Source of the DNA: Zoogloea sp.
GTDB lineage: Bacteria > Pseudomonadota > Gammaproteobacteria > Burkholderiales > Rhodocyclaceae
DNA length: 55,681 nt
NCBI RefSeq assembly: GCF_028693495.1
Contig: NZ_JAQUVG010000009.1
Coordinates: 1 to 55,681 of the forward strand
Direction of reading: 5' to 3'
Shown here: one piece after another, positions 1 to 19,608 of the stretch
How positions within the stretch are numbered: the stretch's first letter is position 1
Layout: every line of letters starts with the position of its first letter
Notes under the pieces: model-generated
Databases searched by the model: none
Told to the model about the DNA's origin: nothing
The model's input: only the letters and a program-made list of their open reading frames with translations
Made by a program: the position numbers and the translations under genes

Positions 1-1
1 G

Positions 2-94
2 CTGTATCGGGTGCCGCCCAAGGCCGTGGCCAAGAACCTCGCCGTGCCCATTTCGACGCTGTACCGCTGGGTGCCTGCCTCCGCGCACGCTTAA
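2..94 (+). CDS. C-terminal end of a probable transposon serine resolvase (partial)
   Basis: Thirty codons run in from the window edge to a TAA at 92-94. The residues AVAKNLAVPISTLYRW form a helix-turn-helix of the kind found at the C-terminus of Hin/Tn3-family serine resolvases (pattern: AK-L-V-STLYRW). The stop codon lies within the transposon's terminal inverted repeat (90-127), so the gene belongs to the transposon and reads toward its end. The catalytic domain is outside the window, so the resolvase assignment rests only on the HTH and the transposon context. It could instead be another HTH protein carried by the element. Confidence 0.5.
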   Translation: MYRVPPKAVAKNLAVPISTLYRWVPASAHA

Positions 95-127
95 CGTGCT
101 TTATTATCCGTTTTCTGAAACGACCCC
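90..127 (-). repeat. Tn3-family (Tn21-like) 38-bp terminal inverted repeat
   Basis: Read on the minus strand from 127, the sequence begins GGGGTCGTTTCAGAAAACGG and ends GCACGTTAAG. That is 38 bp long and, against the Tn21/Tn501 subgroup repeat as I recall it, differs at about three positions. It marks the exact outer end of a Tn3-family transposon whose body lies to the left, outside the window. The host bases abutting it are 128-132 (TAGTA), which should be duplicated at the other end of the element if the insertion is intact. Confidence 0.88.
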
Positions 128-1944
128 TAGTAGCTGGCGCTCTTCTGGCGGTCGCGCCCGGCGAGGCGGTAGATGAAGCTGCCCCTGGGGTACAGGCGCA
201 GCTTGCGGTGGCCGGACTCGGTGATGTCGTAGACGCGCTCTTCATCTTTGTATTCGGCGAGGCGGCAGGAGGGGACGAACCAGGCGGTATCGAGCTTGTC
301 GGCGTCCGAAGCGGCGCCGCTGCCCTTGCGGCGGCCGCGGCCGGTGTTGTCGTCGGCGGACTCGCTGTCGTTGGCATCGTCGTTGCCTTCGCTGTCGGTG
401 TCCTCGGTGTCGGTGTCCTCGTCTTCCGCTGCGGCAGCTTTGCCCTTCTTGGGTGCGGGCTTCACCTCGTAGAGGTCATCGGATGCAAAGAAACCGCGGT
501 AACTCAGCAGCGCCTCATACACCGCGCCGAGCTGGTTGATGGACAGCAGCTGGTAGCTGACCCGGCCGCTGCGGCGCCCCCTGCCCTGGCCCCGGGTGAG
601 CGACATGAGGCGGATGATGGTCTGCCAGATGTGGTTGGGGAAGCGCACCTTGCCCAGCAGCGGCAGGGTGCTGTCGTCGAACAGGCGGCTGTCCAGCGGC
701 GCGAGCGCGAAGGTTTCTCGGGCACCGGCCACGGTGCTGCCGCCCGAGCCGAGGGCGTGCTGGGTGGGGCCGCCCAGGCCGGTGCCTTCGGCAACGAGCT
801 TGAAGAGACGGCGCAGGGTGGCGTCGAAGTAGAAGCCGTCGCGGGCGTGGGGCGTGGTGAGCGGCTGCATCTCCAGGTCGCGCAGGCTCTCGAGGCTGTA
901 GCCCTTGAGGTAAATATCGCTCTTGGCGATGGGCACGTAGCCGAGTTCGGGCCGGGCCTCGATGTAGAACATGAAGAGCAGGCGATACACCAGGCGCAGA
1001 CATTCGAGACTGAGGTCGCCAGCGTCGAGCTGGTCCTTTCCACTGAAAAAGCCCTTCTTGGCGTCGGCCGCCTGCTCGCGCAGCTGGCGCGCAGCCTCGT
1101 TGCCGAGGAGTTCGATGGCTTCACGCAGGGCGTACTTGAGGTCTTCGCTGACACCGAAAGCGTGCTTGTGGGCGTTCTCGTCCAGGCTCTCCAGCAGGCT
1201 GTTGCCCTCGCCGGGGGCAAGACAGTCCTTGTGCAACAGCGCGGCGCAAGCCTTGAGGGTGTCGGCGTCCTTACGGTCGAGGATGTCGGCCCAGTTGAAG
1301 CGTAGCGCGCGGTTGTTGGGCCACTTGTAGCGGTCGAGCAGCAGCCATTCGTCCAGCCCGCACAGCAGCACGTAGCGCGGTGGGGTATCGGCACCGAACA
1401 CCACGCCAGAGAGCAGGTCGGCCCAGGTCTCATTGCGCAGGGCTTGGGGCACCGGCTCGCCGCCGTAGTGCAGGCTGAGCAGCTTGTGGTCGAGCAGCTC
1501 CTGGTCTTCGGCGCCAGGCTGGTAGGCGGGGAGGATGGCGAGCTGTGGCAGTTGCAGGTGCCAGAAAGGAAGCGCCTTGCCGGTAGCCAGTTCGTGCACG
1601 GGAGGTAGCTTGCCCGGCACGGCGTGGCCCAGGGCCTGCAGCAGGCCGGCCTGGAGCTGGGTGAAGAGGCGCCAGCGCTCGGCGGCGTCGCCAGCCCGTT
1701 GCATCTGGCTGCGCAGGGCGAACCACTTTTGCGCCCAGGCTTGCAGGCGCCTGTGGGGCCCGCGGTGGCGGTCGCGAGCGGTCTCATCTACCTCGTTGCC
1801 TTGAGCCAATGTTTCGGCGGCCTCCCAGGCGTCGAGCCGGGCCTTGATGTCGCCCTTGAAGACCTCGGCCAGGTAGTGGTGGCTGTAGAACTCGTTTTCG
1901 TTGGTGATGCCGGCGAAGGTTTGAACGGCGTCCAGTACGGGCAT
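127..1944 (-). pseudogene. drmMI: DrmMI-like Eco57I-type DNA adenine methyltransferase, cut by transposon
   Basis: The frame starts at ATG 1944, two bases after the helicase stop (TGA 1949-1947), so the two genes are translationally coupled. It encodes 605 residues and ends in GRDRQKSASY followed by a TAG formed at the transposon junction. In large Eco57I-like methyltransferases the motif REKSASYYTPE opens the SAM-binding catalytic domain, so the break comes exactly where catalysis begins. No NPPY/NPPF motif is present in what remains. Only the N-terminal region survives, including a long acidic low-complexity stretch (about residues 505-550). The order helicase then methyltransferase matches drmD-drmMI of class 1 DISARM. 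As it stands the gene cannot make an active methylase. The family name is likely; the loss of function is read directly from the sequence. Confidence 0.75.
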
Positions 1945-1946
1945 GG

Positions 1947-4895
1947 TCAGGCTCCGGCAGGGCTGGGGTTGCAAACGGCGGCGAGCACCTGAATCCAGGG
2001 CTGCGGCTCGGTGGTGAGGGTGTCTTCCACCCAGCGCCGGTAGTCGTCAAAAACGCGGTGGATATCGCGGCTCTTCTGCTCGAAGCGACCGCGCTTGACG
2101 GTTTCGAGCTGCTTCTCGAGGTCGAGGCTGAGCTGTTCGATTTGGCGGCCCTGCAGGCGCTGCAAGTCGGTCAGCGTGCTTTCGAGGCGCTTGGCGAGTT
2201 CGGCCGAGAAGGCGGCCTGCTGCTTGAGCATGTAGGCGTGCATCGCGCGCACCGCGCCGGGCAAGGCGCTCTGCATGACCTCGGTGGTCGCAGTGAGCTC
2301 CGAGGTATGCCCACGGTTGGGCAAGCCACCCGCTTTGAGGCCAGCGCGGGCGATGAAGGCGTCGAAGGACTCCAGCGTGAAGGGAGCTGAAGCGCCCTGC
2401 CCCACCCGGCTCGCCACCTGCCACTCGACCAGCATGGGCTGGCCCTTGCGGTTGGGGATGAGGCTCATGAGGATGAAGGCCTGCTCGCCGGGCGCGAGCT
2501 TGTGGCTTTGCAGCAGCGGCGCCCGGTGGCGACCGAAATGCGTCAGCACGCGGTCGCCCAGCCATTCGACGATGGGATGCTGGGGCCAGAGGTAGTGCAG
2601 CTTGGGCCAGGTGTCCTGCTCAGCGCGGGCCTGGCGGGCAGTTTCAATCGCATCGGCCATGCGCCGGGGGTCGGCGCACAGGGCGTAGTGGTCGTTGTCG
2701 GCCTGGGCTTCGCGCGGCAACTGGCGCAGGCGGTCTTGCAGGTCAAGCGGCGCGGTGAGCGCGATGACGCGCTCGGCATCCTCGGCGGTCCACTGGCACA
2801 GGGTCTGGCCCTGGTTGAGCAGGGTCAGCGCGGTCTTGGCGTAGTGGAAGTCGCTGTCGAAGAGAGAGGCGGGCTCGGCGATGTTGTCGAGGCTGCTACC
2901 GGCGGCGGGCGTCGCCTCTTCGTCTTCGGTTGCGCTGTTGCCGCTGAAGAGGGTCATCAGCCAGTCGCCGTCATTGTCCGAGTCAGAGGCGACCGCCGCG
3001 TCCATCGTGGCTTCGACCTGTTCGGGGCTGAGGCCTTCGGCCATGAAGTCGGCGACCTTCTCCGCTTCCTTTTCCGGGTCGAAGACGTTGAGAAAGGCCG
3101 AAGGGTCGCCAAGGTTCAAGGTGGCCTGCTCGTCCTTGCGTTCGAGGATTTCCAAGATGCGCAGGTCGCCCTTGATTTTCTCGTTCGCGGCGTCGGTAAA
3201 AAGATAGACGATGTGCGGCTGATGCTTCTGGCCATAGCGGTCGACGCGGCCGTTGCGCTGCTGGAAGACCATCAGCGACCAGGGCAGGTCGAAGTGCACC
3301 AGACGGTGGCAGAAGTAGTGCAGGTTGAGGCCTTCGCTGGCGACGTCCGAACACAAGAGGATGCGCAGCGGGTCGTCCAGGCGACCGAAGCGGTCGACCA
3401 GCTCCTGCTGCTCCGTGTCGGCCATCTGGCCGTGCAACACCTCAATCTGATTGGGCTTGAGCTTGAGGTCGGCGCTGAGGTGCTCGCGTAGCCAGCGCAG
3501 GGTCTCGATGCGCTCGGAAAAGATGACCAGGCGGTCTTCGGCGTGCTTGACCTGCCAGCTGAACTCGGCTGACTGCAGGTGCTGCTTGAGACGCTGGTAC
3601 TTGCTGAACTGGGTTGCCGCCGGGTCGGTGGCGAGAGGGGTGAGCGTCTCTTCAAAGTAGCGCAGGGATTCGACCTCAGTCGCCTCCTCTTGCGTCGGAC
3701 TGCTCTTGCCCTGCAGCAGGGCCATGCGCTTGCGCGTGGATTCCATCGCGGCCGCCGGGCTGGAGAACAGCGCCTTCTGCATCGCGATACGCTGGAGCTC
3801 CTGCTGCTTGCCGGCCCGGTGCTCACCGCCCTGAGTGAAGGGAATCTCCAGCAGCGCGCGGTAGGCGGCTTCCTCCTGCGCCGTGGCGGGCGTGCGCAGG
3901 CAGTTGGTAACGCGCTCCTGGAAGTCGGCGCTAACCTGGTCGCGGATGTCCTTCTTGAAGCGGCGGATGACCAGGCCCTTGCTGCGGAAGTCGTCAGGCG
4001 TGTAGTCGTCGGGGTCGGAGATGGCCGTGGGGTCGAGCAGGCTCATCAGTGAGGCGAAGCTGCGCGCCGAGCCGTCGTGCGGCGTAGCCGAAAGCAGCAT
4101 GAGGGTGTCCGAGCGGGTGGCCAGCAGCTTCGCCAGCCGCGCGCGGCGCGAGAGCCCCGACTCGCCTAACCGGGCGGCGACGTTGTGGCATTCGTCGATG
4201 ACGATGATGTCCCACCAGGCGTTCTCGAGATAGTTGCGGTACTCGAGGTTGCTCTTGAGGGTATCGATGGAGATGATGCTGCGGTCGAAGTAGTTGAACG
4301 GGTTATGGTTGGCGGGGATGCGGTTGCGCACGCGAGCCAGGCCTACCGAGTCCAAACGCACCAGCGGGATGGAGAAGCGGCTCCACCACTCCTTCTGGAA
4401 CTGCGTGAGCATCGCCTTTTGCGTGACCACCAGGATGCGCTTTCCCCTGCCCCGCTGAATCAGCTCGGTCGCGAGCACGCCCGCTTCCAGCGTCTTGCCC
4501 AGACCGACCGCATCGGCAATCAGGATGCGCGAGCGCGGCTGACGCAGCGCCTGCAGCGCCGGGTCGAGCTGATAGGGCACCAGGTTCATCACCCCGCGGT
4601 GGCCCAGATGGACCTTGTCGTCGTTGGCGACGTTGCGCCGGCGCAGACTCTCCAGATACAGGATGCTGGCGTTGTAGGCGGGGGTGTCGTCGGGGATGAG
4701 CTCGGTCTTCTCCGGGTCGAGGACGTGAATCTCGTCCTCTAGGACGGTGAGGAACAGGGCCGACTGGCTGCGAACCAGCTCTGAGATGCCGTCGCAGGTA
4801 AGAAGCCAGCCACCGTCGGTGGCGGGGTCGATACGACGGACGAGCCATTCTTCGTCGCGGATGACGACGCGGGAGCCGGGGGCAAAAGGAAGCAT
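1947..4895 (-). CDS. drmD: SNF2-family helicase, DrmD-like (DISARM defence)
   Basis: A full-length 982-residue superfamily 2 helicase. Visible motifs are Walker A GLGKT (131-135) within ADAVGLGKTLEAG, motif II DECH (234-237), motif III SATPHDG (269-275) and motif VI QQRNGRVDRYGQ (around 545-556). The long tail after the helicase core, partly coiled-coil-like (RLQGRQIEQLSLDLEKQLE), is typical of DISARM DrmD and related defence helicases. In class 1 DISARM this ATPase works with an adenine methylase and DrmA/B/C to restrict incoming phage DNA. Here it is intact, but its partner methylase is broken and drmA, drmB and drmC are not in the window. Alternative: a helicase of another SNF2/Eco57I defence cassette. 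Confidence 0.75.
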   Translation of the reverse strand: MLPFAPGSRVVIRDEEWLVRRIDPATDGGWLLTCDGISELVRSQSALFLTVLEDEIHVLDPEKTELIPDDTPAYNASILYLESLRRRNVANDDKVHLGHRGVMNLVPYQLDPALQALRQPRSRILIADAVGLGKTLEAGVLATELIQRGRGKRILVVTQKAMLTQFQKEWWSRFSIPLVRLDSVGLARVRNRIPANHNPFNYFDRSIISIDTLKSNLEYRNYLENAWWDIIVIDECHNVAARLGESGLSRRARLAKLLATRSDTLMLLSATPHDGSARSFASLMSLLDPTAISDPDDYTPDDFRSKGLVIRRFKKDIRDQVSADFQERVTNCLRTPATAQEEAAYRALLEIPFTQGGEHRAGKQQELQRIAMQKALFSSPAAAMESTRKRMALLQGKSSPTQEEATEVESLRYFEETLTPLATDPAATQFSKYQRLKQHLQSAEFSWQVKHAEDRLVIFSERIETLRWLREHLSADLKLKPNQIEVLHGQMADTEQQELVDRFGRLDDPLRILLCSDVASEGLNLHYFCHRLVHFDLPWSLMVFQQRNGRVDRYGQKHQPHIVYLFTDAANEKIKGDLRILEILERKDEQATLNLGDPSAFLNVFDPEKEAEKVADFMAEGLSPEQVEATMDAAVASDSDNDGDWLMTLFSGNSATEDEEATPAAGSSLDNIAEPASLFDSDFHYAKTALTLLNQGQTLCQWTAEDAERVIALTAPLDLQDRLRQLPREAQADNDHYALCADPRRMADAIETARQARAEQDTWPKLHYLWPQHPIVEWLGDRVLTHFGRHRAPLLQSHKLAPGEQAFILMSLIPNRKGQPMLVEWQVASRVGQGASAPFTLESFDAFIARAGLKAGGLPNRGHTSELTATTEVMQSALPGAVRAMHAYMLKQQAAFSAELAKRLESTLTDLQRLQGRQIEQLSLDLEKQLETVKRGRFEQKSRDIHRVFDDYRRWVEDTLTTEPQPWIQVLAAVCNPSPAGA

Positions 4896-4972
4896 CAGCA
4901 GATTCGACTGGTTATGAGAAGTGCTTACGGGAAGCCGCGGAGATTATCGCAGATGCGCGATAAGGCACGGCA

Positions 4973-6343
4973 GCCGGCATGCGGGTCCGCACCGGGCGGT
5001 TCGAGATCTTGAGCAGACGGTTACTGTTGCGCCACCAGCGTCGGTTGTTCGCCGCCACTTGTCGCGCCACGTCTTCCTTCGCACCTAATGCCTTGAGTTC
5101 GCGGTAGATCGTCCCCGGCCGTCTCCAGTGCTTGAGCTGTATGGCCCGCAATCGGTGGCGCAGCCACTCGTCCAGCCTCAGCCAAACTGCGGGCGTTTGC
5201 GCTAGTCCGAAGTACACCTTCCATCCAAGCAGATAGGGCCGGATTTTCTCTACGACTTGCCCCATGCTGCATCCCCCTGAGCGCCTTGTGGGCCACTGCA
5301 CATTTGACTTCTTTGCCCCTGGCCACCCACAGCGCATACCCCAGGAACTTCCGCCCAAAAGCACTGGCCACCGCGCTCTTCGCTTCGTTGATCTGAAGCC
5401 GCAGCTTGGCGTACAGCGTCCTGAGCAGCGCCATCACCCGTTCGCCAGCCTTTCGGCTGACCACGTAGACGTTGCAGTCGTCGGCGTAGCGCGCGAAGCT
5501 GTAGCCTCGCGTATCAAGCGCCTTGTCCACCTCGTCGAGCAGCACGTTGGCCAGCAGCGGGGATAGCGGTCCGCCTTGCGGCGTTCCCAGGTGGCGCTCG
5601 ATCACCACCCCGCCATCCATGATCCCGGCGTTCAGGTATGCACGAACCAGCCGGATCACTCCGGCGTCATCGATGCGTCGCTTGAGCCTGTCGATCAGGA
5701 TGTCGTGGTTGACCCGGTCGAAGAACTTCTCCAGGTCCACGTCCACCACCACGCGCTTGCCCGACTGCACGTAGCTACGCGCGGCCTTGACCGCGTCGTG
5801 CGCCCGCCTGCCGGGACGGAACCCATGGCTGTGTTCGCTGAAAGTGGGGTCGATCAGGGGTTGCAGCACTTGCAACAGTGCCTGCTGGATCAGCCGATCC
5901 AGCGCCGTCGGGATGCCCAGCTCACGCTGGCTACCGTCCGGCTTGGGAATCATGACCTTGCGTACCGGACTCGGCCGGTAGCACCCCTGCAACAGCGCCT
6001 CACGAATGTCGGGCCAGCGCGTGCGCAGCAGATCGGCGGTCTGCTCGATGTCGAGCCCATCCGCCCCGGCCGCACCCTTGTTGGCCTTGACCCGTTTCCA
6101 GGCCGCTTGCAGGTTCTGTCTCGTCAGCGCCGCTTCCAGCAGGCCACCGGTGCCCGCCTTCGGCCTTGCCGACCCTGTGTCCGGGTCTTCACTCGGCGGG
6201 CCGCTGGCTTCGTCGCTGATGAGATCACGCACGGCTTCACCGGACGCTTCCCCCACCCTCACGCAGTTGCGCTTCACTTCACTCACTGTGACCAGCTCGT
6301 GGCGGGACTTGCACCCGCAGGCGTGCGCCCATGCTGGGCGCAC
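4973..6343 (-). mobile_element. Degenerate group II intron (bacterial class C-like) at tRNA-Ser terminator
   Basis: On the minus strand the element begins GTGCGCCCAGCATGGGCGCAC at 6343, a 5' hairpin, directly after the T-run of the tRNA-Ser terminator. Insertion just behind a terminator hairpin is the hallmark of group IIC introns. A reverse transcriptase gene follows, then a recognisable domain V arm (CCGCCCGGTGCGGACCCGCA, about 5000-4980). The expected distal strand of domain V and all of domain VI are missing: the sequence departs from the family pattern near 4973. The ORF is also frameshifted. The intron is therefore probably dead. The 3' boundary is approximate. Confidence 0.72.
5004..6160 (-). 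pseudogene. ltrA: Group II intron reverse transcriptase/maturase, frameshifted
   Basis: The frame from about 6160 carries the RT domain: LLEAALTRQNLQAAWKRVKANKG, RELGIPTALDRLIQQ, HGFRPGRRAHDA, TPQGGPLSPLLANV and the catalytic YADD within FARYADDCNVYV. After AVAHKALR (about 5273) this frame becomes nonsense. The maturase domain (MGQVVEKIRPYLLGW, ..HRLRAIQLKHWRRPGTIYREL.., NNRRWWRNSNRLL) continues in another frame down to about 5004. Relatives carry some 15-20 extra residues between the halves, so a small frame-changing deletion is likely. The usual C-terminal end is also missing, with the frame running directly into domain V. The upstream start is undefined because the frame stays open through intron domain I. 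Confidence 0.85.
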
Positions 6344-6374
6344 AAACAAAAAAGCCCTGAATAATCAGGGCTTT
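6344..6374 (-). terminator. Rho-independent terminator after tRNA-Ser
   Basis: A 10-bp perfect stem (6351-6360 with 6365-6374, loop ATAA) is followed on the minus strand by a T-rich run, TTTTTTGTTT. It lies 13 bp beyond the tRNA-Ser 3' end and is the landing site of the group II intron. Confidence 0.85.
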
Positions 6375-6386
6375 CGTGTTTTTTCT

Positions 6387-6480
6387 TGGCGGAGAGTGAG
6401 GGATTCGAACCCTCGATGCAAGTTTTAGCTCGCATGCTCCCTTAGCAGGGGAGTGCCTTCGACCTCTCGGCCAACTCTCC
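6387..6480 (-). tRNA. tRNA-Ser (anticodon GCU)
   Basis: Read on the minus strand, the gene runs from GGAGAGTTGGCCGAGAGGTC to ACTCTCCGCCA. The acceptor stem GGAGAGT pairs with ACTCTCC, the anticodon loop is CTGCTAA, a long variable arm marks a class II tRNA, and the T arm reads GGGTTCGAATCCC. The 3' CCA is encoded. Total 94 nt. It follows lysC on the same strand. Confidence 0.97.
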
Positions 6481-6532
6481 TCCGCAAGAGCTGCGCATTT
6501 TAGACAACGCTCAGCCCATTGTCAAAAATAAT

Positions 6533-7756
6533 TTACGCTTGATCGAGGCCAAAGGCGCGGTGCAGAACACGGACGGCCAACTCCAGGTACTTCTCGTCGA
6601 TGGCAACGGAGATCTTGATCTCGGAAGTGGAGATCATCTGGATGTTGATGCCTTCCTCGGCCAGGGTCCGGAACATGCGGGAGGCCACGCCCGGGTGGGA
6701 GCGCATGCCGACGCCGACGATGGAGACCTTGGCCATGGTGCGGTCGCCCTCGATGGCGCGGGCGCCGATGTGGCCCTGCACGCCTTCAAGGATCTTGATG
6801 GCCTTCTCGTAGTCAGGACGATTGACGGTAAACGAGAAGTCGGTGGTGCCATCATGGCCGACGTTCTGGATGATCATGTCCACATCGACGTTGGCGTCCG
6901 CCACGGGACCGAGGATCTGATAGGCGATGCCCGGCTTGTCGGGAACGCCCAGCACGGTGATCTTGGCTTCGTCGCGGTTGAATGCAATGCCGGAGATGAT
7001 CGGCTGTTCCATGTTCTTGTCTTCCTCTACGGTAATCAGGGTGCCCTCACCTTCCTCCTGGAAGCTGGAGAGAACACGAAGCTTCACTTTGTACTTGCCG
7101 GCAAATTCCACCGAGCGGATCTGCAGCACCTTGGAGCCGAGGCTGGCCATTTCCAGCATCTCTTCAAAGGTGATGGTGTCCAGCTTGCGGGCTTCCGGAA
7201 CAACCCGGGGGTCGGTGGTGTACACGCCATCCACGTCGGTATAGATCTGGCACTCATCTGCCTTGATCGCCGCGGCCAGGGCTACGCCTGTGGTGTCCGA
7301 GCCACCCCGGCCAAGTGTGGTGATGTTGCCGGCGTCGTCGACACCCTGGAAACCCGCCACAACGACAACGGAACCCGCATCCAGGTCACGAAGGATGTTT
7401 GCACCATCGATGTCCAGGATGCGGGCTTTGGTGAAGGCGTTGTCGGTGAGGATGCGCACCTGACCACCCGTGTAGCTGCGCGCCTTGACGCCCATCTCCT
7501 CCAGAGCCATGCACAGGAGACCGATGGTGACCTGCTCGCCGGTGGAAATCACCACGTCGAGCTCACGGGGGCTGGGGGCCGGACTGATTTCCTTGGCCAG
7601 AGCAATCAGACGGTTGGTCTCGCCGCTCATCGCGGACAGGACGATCACCATCTTGTGCCCTTGGGCGTGGAACTTCGCGACCCGCTTGGCCACGTTCTTG
7701 ATCCGTTCTGGATTGCCGACGGAAGTGCCGCCGTACTTCTGAACTATGAGCGCCAT
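6533..7756 (-). CDS. lysC: Aspartate kinase
   Basis: A 407-residue aspartokinase, which phosphorylates L-aspartate as the first step of lysine, threonine, methionine and diaminopimelate synthesis. The N-terminus [14 protein letters not shown] is the kinase signature. [16 protein letters not shown] contributes to the active site. Two C-terminal ACT domains (around [13 protein letters not shown] and [15 protein letters not shown]) provide allosteric control by lysine and/or threonine. Length and architecture are those of class II aspartokinases, which may also produce a shorter beta subunit from an internal start. The start chosen is ATG 7756, directly at [10 protein letters not shown]; an in-frame upstream extension has no conserved sequence. 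The tRNA-Ser gene lies 52 bp downstream. Confidence 0.97.
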
Positions 7757-7903
7757 CTTGACTTCTAAGAAGGTGTGATGTGGAAAGCTCATGATCTTAT
7801 CGGATTACGGTCTTGCGTGCAGCAAGTCGCACTGACAAATGCCGTCCGTGCTTCATGTCACGGGGACGACATGTGGAAAACCCTAATCAATGCAAATATG
7901 TCG

Positions 7904-7933
7904 TTGTATCCGTAGAGCGTACTGATCTATACT
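7904..7933 (+). promoter_or_regulatory. Candidate sigma-70 promoter for the XRE gene
   Basis: TTGTAT (7904-7909) and TATACT (7928-7933) are separated by 18 bp, giving a predicted start near 7940. This is the best promoter-like pair in the gap between lysC and the small regulator gene. Confidence 0.5.
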
Positions 7934-7941
7934 TTCCGACA

Positions 7942-7957
7942 TATAACGAAAGTTATA
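7942..7957. promoter_or_regulatory. Palindrome TATAACGAAAGTTATA, candidate operator
   Basis: A perfect 6-bp inverted repeat (TATAAC / GTTATA, spacer GAAA) placed just after the predicted start site of the XRE gene. A bound repressor here would block transcription, which would suit autoregulation by the downstream HTH protein. The binding protein is inferred. Confidence 0.45.
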
Positions 7958-8019
7958 CAAAACAGCAGCTAGTCTGTTGTTAAGACTGACAGAGTGACGA
8001 CCCCCTAGAGGATTGCAAA

Positions 8020-8322
8020 ATGAAAACGACCGAAAAAGTTGATGTCCGCGAAATCCGCCGCAAGCTTGGCCTGAACCAGTCCCAGTTCTGGTCCAAGATC
8101 GGTGTCACCCAGAGCGGCGGCTCCCGCTACGAAAGCGGCCGCAACATCCCCCGCCCCGTGCAGGCCCTGCTGCGCCTCGTGCATATTGAGCAGGTGGATA
8201 TCAGCAAGATCAAGAAGGATGACGTGGAAGTGGTCGAGTACCTGAAAGCCACCAACCCTGAGCTCTTCAAGACCCTCAAGAAGGAAGCTCGCGCAAAGAA
8301 GAAGGAACGCGTGGCCCATTAA
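8020..8322 (+). CDS. Small XRE-family helix-turn-helix regulator
   Basis: A 100-residue protein. Residues about 9-45 (VREIRRKLGLNQSQFWSKIGVTQSGGSRYESGRNIP) form an XRE-type HTH with the usual LNQSQF and YESGR landmarks. The C-terminus is lysine-rich (KKEARAKKKERVAH). A ribosome site AGAGGA lies 8 bases before ATG 8020. The gene stands alone, with its own promoter, palindrome and terminator, so autoregulation is plausible. Its target genes are unknown. It resembles short HTH proteins common in Rhodocyclales and Burkholderiales. Confidence 0.85.
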   Translation: MKTTEKVDVREIRRKLGLNQSQFWSKIGVTQSGGSRYESGRNIPRPVQALLRLVHIEQVDISKIKKDDVEVVEYLKATNPELFKTLKKEARAKKKERVAH

Positions 8323-18762: not shown

Positions 18763-19608
18763 TCAGGGAATCTCGGATTCCAGGGTATAGCTAGCCCCTG
18801 TGTCCAGACCAAGGACCGTCACCAGATAGGGCAGGGTCTTTTTCAGGATCTCATTGAGGGTCCAGGGCGGGTTGATGATGAAGAGACCGCTGCCATGCAT
18901 GCCGTATCCATCACTGGATGGACTGCGGACGTCCAGGCTGACATGAAGCCAGCTGGTGATCGGCAAACGCTTGAGTTTTTCTGGCAACTCCCGGGACTCC
19001 ATGCTGTGCAACTTCGGGTACCACACTGCATACGTCCCGGTGGGGAAACGCCGCAGGCACTCCTTGAGCGACGAGACCACCGTGCGGTAATCCGTCTTCA
19101 CCTCATAGGGCGGATCCATCAGGACCAGGGCACGGCGCGGCGGCGGAGGCAGGAAGGCGTTGATGCCCGTGAAACCGTCCTGTTGCAGCACCATCACCTT
19201 GCTGCCCGCAGTCTCGAAGGTTTTCTGCAGCAGCTTGTTGTCTGCCGGATGGAGTTCGAACAGGCGCATCCGGTCTTCTTCCCGCAGCAGCGGTGCCGCA
19301 CAGCACGGAGACCCCGGATACAGGCGGAGCTTGCCTGCACTGTTGAGATCCCGCACCAGCTTGAGATAGCTTTTCAGTTCCTTGGGGACATCCTTGCGAC
19401 CGAGGAGGCGGCCGACACCGTCCTCATACTCGGCATTCTTGCGGGCAAAGGCCTCGTCCAGGGCATAGCAGCCGGCCCCCGCGTGGGTGTCGATGTACCA
19501 GTAGGGCTTGTCCTTCTGATTGAAATACTCCAGCAACTGGACAAGAACAAAGTGCTTGAGCACGTCGGCATGGTTGCCGGCATGAAATGCGTGACGATAA
19601 CTGAGCAT
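18763..19608 (-). CDS. rlmJ: 23S rRNA (adenine-2030 N6)-methyltransferase
   Basis: A 281-residue RlmJ homologue. It starts MLSYRHAFHAGNHADVLKH, the invariant N-terminus of this family. The catalytic DPPY motif (165-168) sits in VLMDPPYEVKTDY, and the SAM-binding region lies around WYIDTHAGAGCYAL. The end of the core reads GSGLFIINPPW. It methylates A2030 of 23S rRNA. Same strand as the MazG-like and crotonase genes upstream, with a gap of about 110 bp. Confidence 0.96.
   Translation of the reverse strand: MLSYRHAFHAGNHADVLKHFVLVQLLEYFNQKDKPYWYIDTHAGAGCYALDEAFARKNAEYEDGVGRLLGRKDVPKELKSYLKLVRDLNSAGKLRLYPGSPCCAAPLLREEDRMRLFELHPADNKLLQKTFETAGSKVMVLQQDGFTGINAFLPPPPRRALVLMDPPYEVKTDYRTVVSSLKECLRRFPTGTYAVWYPKLHSMESRELPEKLKRLPITSWLHVSLDVRSPSSDGYGMHGSGLFIINPPWTLNEILKKTLPYLVTVLGLDTGASYTLESEIP

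Follow-up and report, generated by a model that had tools for sequence, protein, structure and literature searches.

The window analysed here (the whole stretch of DNA, 55,681 nucleotides) is the entire contig C58 of a 179-contig, 3.51-Mb assembly of Zoogloea sp. (GCF_028693495.1), and at its left end a gene for a defence methylase stops at what appears to be the end of a transposon. The locus raises the question of which defence system was hit, whether the joint is genuine, and which genes of the system survive beyond the transposon. To place the locus, we used 66 relatives that came from a scan of genome contigs; the closest are in Parazoarcus communis (L008) and Thauera propionica (L009). 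The best explanation, which we consider highly probable, is that a Type II ARMADA operon has its front half at the left end of C58, that its armB was cut by a Tn3-family element and that its ArmA, ArmC and ArmD are intact. The assembly itself is probably a binned metagenome, since it has no detectable bacterial 16S rRNA (the control search was positive in 9 of 14 named genomes, so that a miss is not conclusive) and the shortest contig, among the 80 of 179 looked up, has 2,846 bases.

Evidence that a Tn3-family end interrupts a defence methylase

The inner side of the transposon end occupies positions 1-94 (plus strand) and reads as a resolvase-like C-terminus whose stop codon (92-94) lies just within a 38-bp terminal inverted repeat at 90-127 (minus strand, GGGGTCGTTTCAGAAAACGGATAATAAAGCACGTTAAG). 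We take this to be a Tn3/Tn21-type terminal repeat, its 38-bp GGGG...TAAG form being common to this end and to the Tn21-like elements of the Tn3 family; unlike a complete element, the copy in the window has one end, and the transposase and the second end lie outside the contig. The inner side also has a 73% DNA match over 70 bases to the tail of an ORF of plasmid pALTS33 that is annotated as hypothetical only and that we recognised as a resolvase by eye. The first 127 bases of the window are identical to pALTS33 and to positions 1-127 of contig C3 of the same assembly, and at megablast sensitivity pALTS33 is the one record among 72,556 plasmid records that matches window positions 1-126.

On the other side of the repeat lies the N-terminal part, 605 aa, of an ArmB-like methylase (127-1944, minus strand; frame 130-1944), which ends in ...RQKSASY at a TAG stop codon that arises at the joint, the target supplying TA and the repeat its first G. 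The fragment is 88% identical in amino acids to its counterpart in T. propionica and 87% identical to that in P. communis, in which the methylase is uninterrupted at 1741 and 1746 aa, respectively (about 1745 aa in relatives generally). At the position of the joint both genomes read ...AGCTACTACACCCCGCAG, that is SASY|YTPQ, in which TACTA is the native target sequence. The DNA homology to both genomes runs from window position 128 to 4955 and thus ends at the repeat, which shows that the joint is not a chance match. Accordingly, the first-pass annotation was right that a 38-bp Tn21-like repeat is fused to the methylase frame, and that this frame stops within SASY|Y before the catalytic domain, where relatives continue with SASYYTPQ. 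Its description of the frame as Eco57I-like holds for the full-length relative, in which the Eco57I domain (PF07669) covers residues 1015-1069, a part missing here, but not for the 605-aa fragment, in which a Pfam scan found no match. In L008, the SAM-motif region at 639 and the NPPW motif at 1059 also fall within the part missing from the window. These results support the conclusion that a Tn3-family end interrupts the methylase at the start of its catalytic part.

An artificial joint, produced by chimeric assembly of a transposon end and a methylase gene, is very unlikely. Such an error would fit a contig that terminates 127 bases from the joint, within the repeat, but the flank begins exactly beyond the outer end of the terminal repeat, as it does in real insertions, and the homology to relatives ends exactly at the joint. 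In addition, C58 and C3 begin with exactly 127 common bases and then diverge, as would be left by an assembly graph with k=127, which suggests that there was no branch at the joint itself; since C3 has the same start and then differs, C58 stops where the repeat begins.

Adjacent to the repeat, TAGTA (128-132) is a candidate 5-bp target duplication. A duplication had been predicted here, and one copy is indeed present at the window side, where it is native sequence in L008 and L009, but no partner copy was found. With a tolerance of up to 3 mismatches in 30 bases, five other repeat ends were found in the assembly, with related ends in contigs C3, C55, C110 and C137; as a negative control, the pattern read backwards gave 0 matches. 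A matching target copy was absent at all five. C55, C110 and C137 were therefore rejected as carriers of the second copy, none of them having a TAGTA partner, and C3 was rejected as the far side of the insertion since its end sequences do not match TAGTA. The transposon body was not found in the assembly beyond C58 and C3.

Contig C3 (L074) is 19 kb long and is bounded by two different Tn3-family ends (1-127 and 19196-19440), both of which, judged by eye, seem to cut genes. Its right end matches a TetR-efflux transposon, found on pPRO2 among other plasmids, that may be different from the element in the window; at least 80% of this query was covered by 183 of the 72,556 plasmid records, and 2,447 records gave any match. 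No continuation of this right end was found on any other contig.

The locus is assigned to ARMADA Type II rather than to DISARM

Next to the methylase fragment, an intact SNF2 helicase of 982 aa (1947-4895, minus strand) carries the domains SNF2-rel_dom and Helicase_C. It is ArmA-like (BrxHII/RapA/DrmD-type) and is identical to the T. propionica and P. communis proteins at 93% and 92% of positions, respectively, over 982 aa. In PADLOC it scored 329 bits with DrmD and 190-196 bits with BrxHI/II, and it scored 151 bits with the RapA model, under the cut-off of that model. On the E. coli plasmid NZ_CP080067, relatives of the helicase and the methylase are followed in a row by two further helicases, one of 2113 aa (DEAD/MZB) and one of 704 aa (UvrD-type). 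A recent preprint (Bell et al. 2025, PMC12458937) describes ARMADA Type II as ArmA, ArmB, ArmC and ArmD in that order, and since the order on NZ_CP080067 is the same, the pair in the window is ArmA and a truncated ArmB of ARMADA Type II. As the preprint describes the type, it consists of a helicase (ArmA), a PglX-like methylase (ArmB), a YprA-type helicase (ArmC) and a GajB-like protein (ArmD, with a RelE-like N-terminal domain), and relatives of our locus keep this same order. The helicase in the window is the BrxHII/RapA-like SNF2 helicase expected of ArmA. Of the PglX-like methylase with NPPW expected of ArmB, the window has only 605 aa, and the remainder was not found in the assembly. Three features set our locus apart from ARMADA Type II: armB breaks off after 605 aa, the genes are divided between two contigs, and armC is preceded by an IS-like remnant and a PIN-domain gene. 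The main text of PMC12458937 names neither Mokosh nor DrmD.

The locus had been read as class 1 DISARM inactivated by transposition with an intact DrmD-like helicase upstream. Transposition into a defence methylase and the open 982-aa helicase frame both stand; the family does not, and we consider a DISARM origin extremely improbable. The helicase is related to DrmD and the methylase weakly so to DrmMI, but the helicase reaches 350 bits with the NCBIfam DISARM DrmD model, below its equivalog cut-off of 610, and the methylase fragment matches REase_MTase_IIG (198 bits in PADLOC) better than DrmMI (37 bits). Moreover, separate drmA, drmB and drmC genes adjoin the pair neither in relatives nor on the contig that carries the downstream genes here (C69, see below); instead of a split drmA/drmB there is a single third gene, of 2137 aa on C69, for a YprA/DruE-type protein, followed by one UvrD-type helicase. 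REase_MTase_IIG is the best PADLOC match of the fragment as well as of the full-length relative, a likeness to the Type IIG restriction-methylation enzymes; unlike stand-alone Type IIG enzymes, this methylase belongs to a four-gene operon with three helicases. Taken together, these results suggest that the locus is a broken member of the known, recently described ARMADA family and is probably switched off.

ArmC and ArmD are intact on another contig

A search of the same genome with ArmC of the E. coli plasmid found contig C69 (L104). It encodes an unbroken ArmC of 2137 aa without internal stop (C69:1921-8334) and an unbroken ArmD of 702 aa (C69:8331-10439). Over residues 1-2094 of 2113, ArmC shares 37% identity with its counterpart on the E. 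coli plasmid. DEAD, Helicase_C and MZB domains and matches of the DruE/YprA type were found in that counterpart, and through this homology ArmC is assigned as a YprA-type helicase with a DUF1998/MZB region, the domains being those of the E. coli homologue. ArmD, a UvrD/GajB-like helicase placed after ArmC, is 42% identical over 5-696 to the E. coli plasmid protein, which itself matches UvrD and GajB. The amino acid identity of ArmC is 93% to T. propionica and 90% to P. communis (2137 of 2137 residues), and that of ArmD, for which 14 genomes were compared, is 88% to both (702 of 702 residues). The start of ArmD overlaps the end of armC by 4 bases, as it likewise does in both of these genomes. 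GC3 is 0.872 for ArmA, 0.868 for ArmB, 0.841 for ArmC and lower, at 0.752, for ArmD.

ArmC is preceded on C69 by a PIN-domain gene and a gene for a 216-aa protein (1118-1768), and the tail of a transposase, IS5-like by eye, lies at the very left end of the contig. The 216-aa protein has no Pfam match, and its relatives are found between ArmB and ArmC in two other loci (L032 and L055); positions 1022-1751 of C69 are 69-71% identical in DNA to the sequence between ArmB and ArmC there.

Thus, ArmA and ArmB lie on C58 and ArmC and ArmD on C69, and the two contigs are not joined in the assembly. Since the nearest relatives of all four genes are in the same two genomes, and about equally close, C58 and C69 most likely represent a single operon, though not physically joined; C69 could be mis-binned. 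Whether the effector-side genes survive beyond the transposon had been named as the key question, and the intact ArmC and ArmD on C69 largely answer it.

Fate of the remainder of armB

In the proposed course of events, a Tn3-family element inserted into armB around codon 605, immediately ahead of the region that binds SAM, which created an in-frame stop at the joint. ArmC and ArmD are intact on C69, behind the PIN-domain segment and the terminal IS-like remnant, and the catalytic part of ArmB was either deleted or left on an unbinned contig.

The catalytic two thirds of ArmB, a stretch of 1146 aa, gave no match when searched for in the 3.51-Mb assembly. As a positive control, the same query was run against 395 family genomes and gave matches in 73. 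In 6 of these it was covered almost completely; one of the 6 has an internal stop, and one is 100% identical and probably the query's own genome. Large pieces were matched in 4 more, and the matches in the other 63 were weaker or partial. The control shows that the search works and that our assembly lacks the remainder. Since the assembly is probably binned, its absence does not prove a deletion. Relatives read on past the joint with YTPQ. The first-pass annotation had named the lack of this remainder as a result that would speak against its reading, and the assembly does lack it.

Two variants can be weighed within this explanation. A simple insertion, with the remainder on an unbinned contig of about 3.5-4 kb bounded by two repeats, has in our estimate an even chance. 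TACTA is native at the site, and a short, repeat-bounded contig would be of the kind lost in binning; however, contigs of 2.8-4.3 kb were retained in the assembly, and nothing of the 1146 aa was found. The other variant is a true deletion: about 3.4 kb, from the Tn3 end to the IS-like remnant at the left end of C69, would have been lost in a rearrangement linked to transposons, and a natural armB-minus, armA/C/D-plus strain would have resulted. This is a serious candidate that we would nonetheless sooner doubt than assume. It agrees with the lack of any remainder in 3.51 Mb, with the lack of a partner end with a matching target copy among the repeat ends found, and with the start of C69 inside IS-like sequence (family by eye), but the assembly is probably binned, and the transposon body is also missing beyond C58 and C3, which may mean that repeats were lost from the assembly together with adjoining sequence.

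In one relative (L022:9899-15072), the methylase frame also ends early: it is open for 908 aa, or for about 874 aa when counted from the usual start. The early end adjoins an IS21-like istA/istB pair (IstB 280 bits) near the contig end, and the genome retains ArmC and ArmD on another contig. This is possibly a second, independent interrupted armB.

The ArmB-ArmC junction as a candidate cargo slot

Of the 66 relatives, 46 carry ArmB and ArmC on the same contig (38 within loci and 8 via genome coordinates); the remaining 20 lack one end or were not followed. The junction distances given here were extrapolated from tblastn matches and are accurate to tens of bases. Between ArmB and ArmC the distance is at most 94 bp in 11 of the 46 and 0.5-12.7 kb in the other 35, exceeding 5 kb in 11. 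Between ArmA and ArmB it does not exceed 45 bp in 56 of 59 (large negative values reflect extrapolated starts), with exceptions of 0.4, 4.3 and 6.7 kb in three loci. The 6.7- and 4.3-kb distances belong to L050 and L052, respectively, which shows that the ArmA-ArmB junction is not wholly closed to insertions. The 11 loci without cargo in the slot all have ArmC and ArmD at a distance of -10 to +14 bp. In another 14 genomes, of which 12 have cargo in the slot, the distance is -4 to +4 bp in the 8 with a placeable ArmC end, and in the other 6 ArmD is close to the start of the stretch examined; ArmD thus directly follows ArmC in 25 of 25 checked. The 46 loci are not independent, the slots of L064, L065 and L066 being more than 99% alike and those of L062 and L067 98.5%.

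Slot-bearing loci include L008, L009, L013, L019, L024, L030, L032, L043, L046, L050 and L055. A scan for domains and systems covered 34 of the 103 listed slot ORFs, some of which may be spurious. Genes of several defence systems were matched: MkoA and MkoB of Mokosh in L008 (and, by similarity to L008, in L030), QatA and QatC of Qat in L024, ZorA1, ZorC1 and ZorD1 of Zorya I in L046 (where ArmC matches over 196 aa only), and ZorA2 of Zorya II in L032 and L050. Other cargo comprises GmrSD with a DrmD-type helicase (L013), GmrSD_N (L062), a HEC-06-like protein (L064), SIR2 (L029), a YhcG nuclease (L049), a kinase (L063), AAA_21 (L051) and an ISL3 transposase (L032). Several of the scanned ORFs had no match (for example those of 1142 aa in L019, 406 aa in L055, 445 aa in L016 and 615 aa in L013). 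We also considered Mokosh as the system's own effector, as helicase, methylase, MkoA and MkoB occur together in L008, and rejected it: ArmC begins directly after MkoB in that locus, which makes Mokosh slot cargo. In our genome, MkoA gave an 18-bit match only, and the first slot gene of Thauera (L009:15233-18169) gave only a 23-bit match, inside ArmD.

Remnants of the start of armC were found inside the slots of L030 (39 aa, L190:2420-2545) and L041 (15 aa), and a 46-aa remnant of the end of armB inside that of L055, a pattern that points to exchange through recombination within the genes on either side. We propose, tentatively and at a little under even confidence, that the ArmB-ArmC junction is a built-in docking slot, an island within an operon, that takes up whole other defence systems by recombination in the end of armB and the start of armC. 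Our own slot would have received an IS remnant, a PIN-domain gene and a gene that recurs in such slots; the later cut in armB would have deprived armA, armC and armD of their methylase. PMC12458937 calls the Type II gene order strict, and a word search of its main text found no mention of an ArmB-ArmC slot. Extra effectors inside BREX loci are reported in a passage of PMC12839542, so the principle of cargo within an operon has precedent.

The slot is a more interesting result than the broken locus. A variable slot in an otherwise tight operon would help to explain the growth of defence islands, and automatic callers would report Mokosh, Qat or Zorya as separate neighbours although they lie inside ARMADA.

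Probable loss of defence and the question of self DNA

According to PMC12458937, deletion of any one of the four ARMADA genes abolished protection in E. coli. By analogy with that system, in which all four proteins are needed, the truncated operon here presumably no longer defends. The first-pass annotation had raised the concern that loss of the methylase endangers self DNA. This receives no support from the passages of the same preprint on single-gene removal, which report lost protection and mention no toxicity. A change in NPPW of ArmB abolished protection there and a change in its SAM motif led to partial loss only, which suggests that methylation as such may not be everything. Here, in a natural setting, a modification-type defence system appears to have lost its methylase and kept its helicase/nuclease side, which bears on whether ArmB protects self DNA or acts only in attack. 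If armA, armC and armD do persist without the methylase, then the methylase would not be needed to spare self DNA.

The upstream flank of ArmA

The homology to L008 and L009 ends at 4955, about 60 bp before the start of ArmA, which indicates that the native upstream region was replaced. Directly upstream of ArmA lies a reverse-transcriptase ORF (4912-6349, minus strand; RVT_1, 129 bits) with its C-terminal piece at 4912-5364 in a different frame; the group II intron type and the frameshift were judged by eye. No Rfam match to a group II intron RNA was found in window positions 4500-8300 at E 0.01. The reverse-transcriptase ORF sits between ArmA and a tRNA-Ser(GCT) gene that borders the island (6387-6480, minus strand; ARAGORN and Rfam RF00005), beyond which a lysC-like ORF (6533-7792) was recognised by eye. 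The 3′ side of a tRNA gene is a typical site for islands, and the ARMADA remnant lies on the 3′ side of this tRNA-Ser(GCT) gene.
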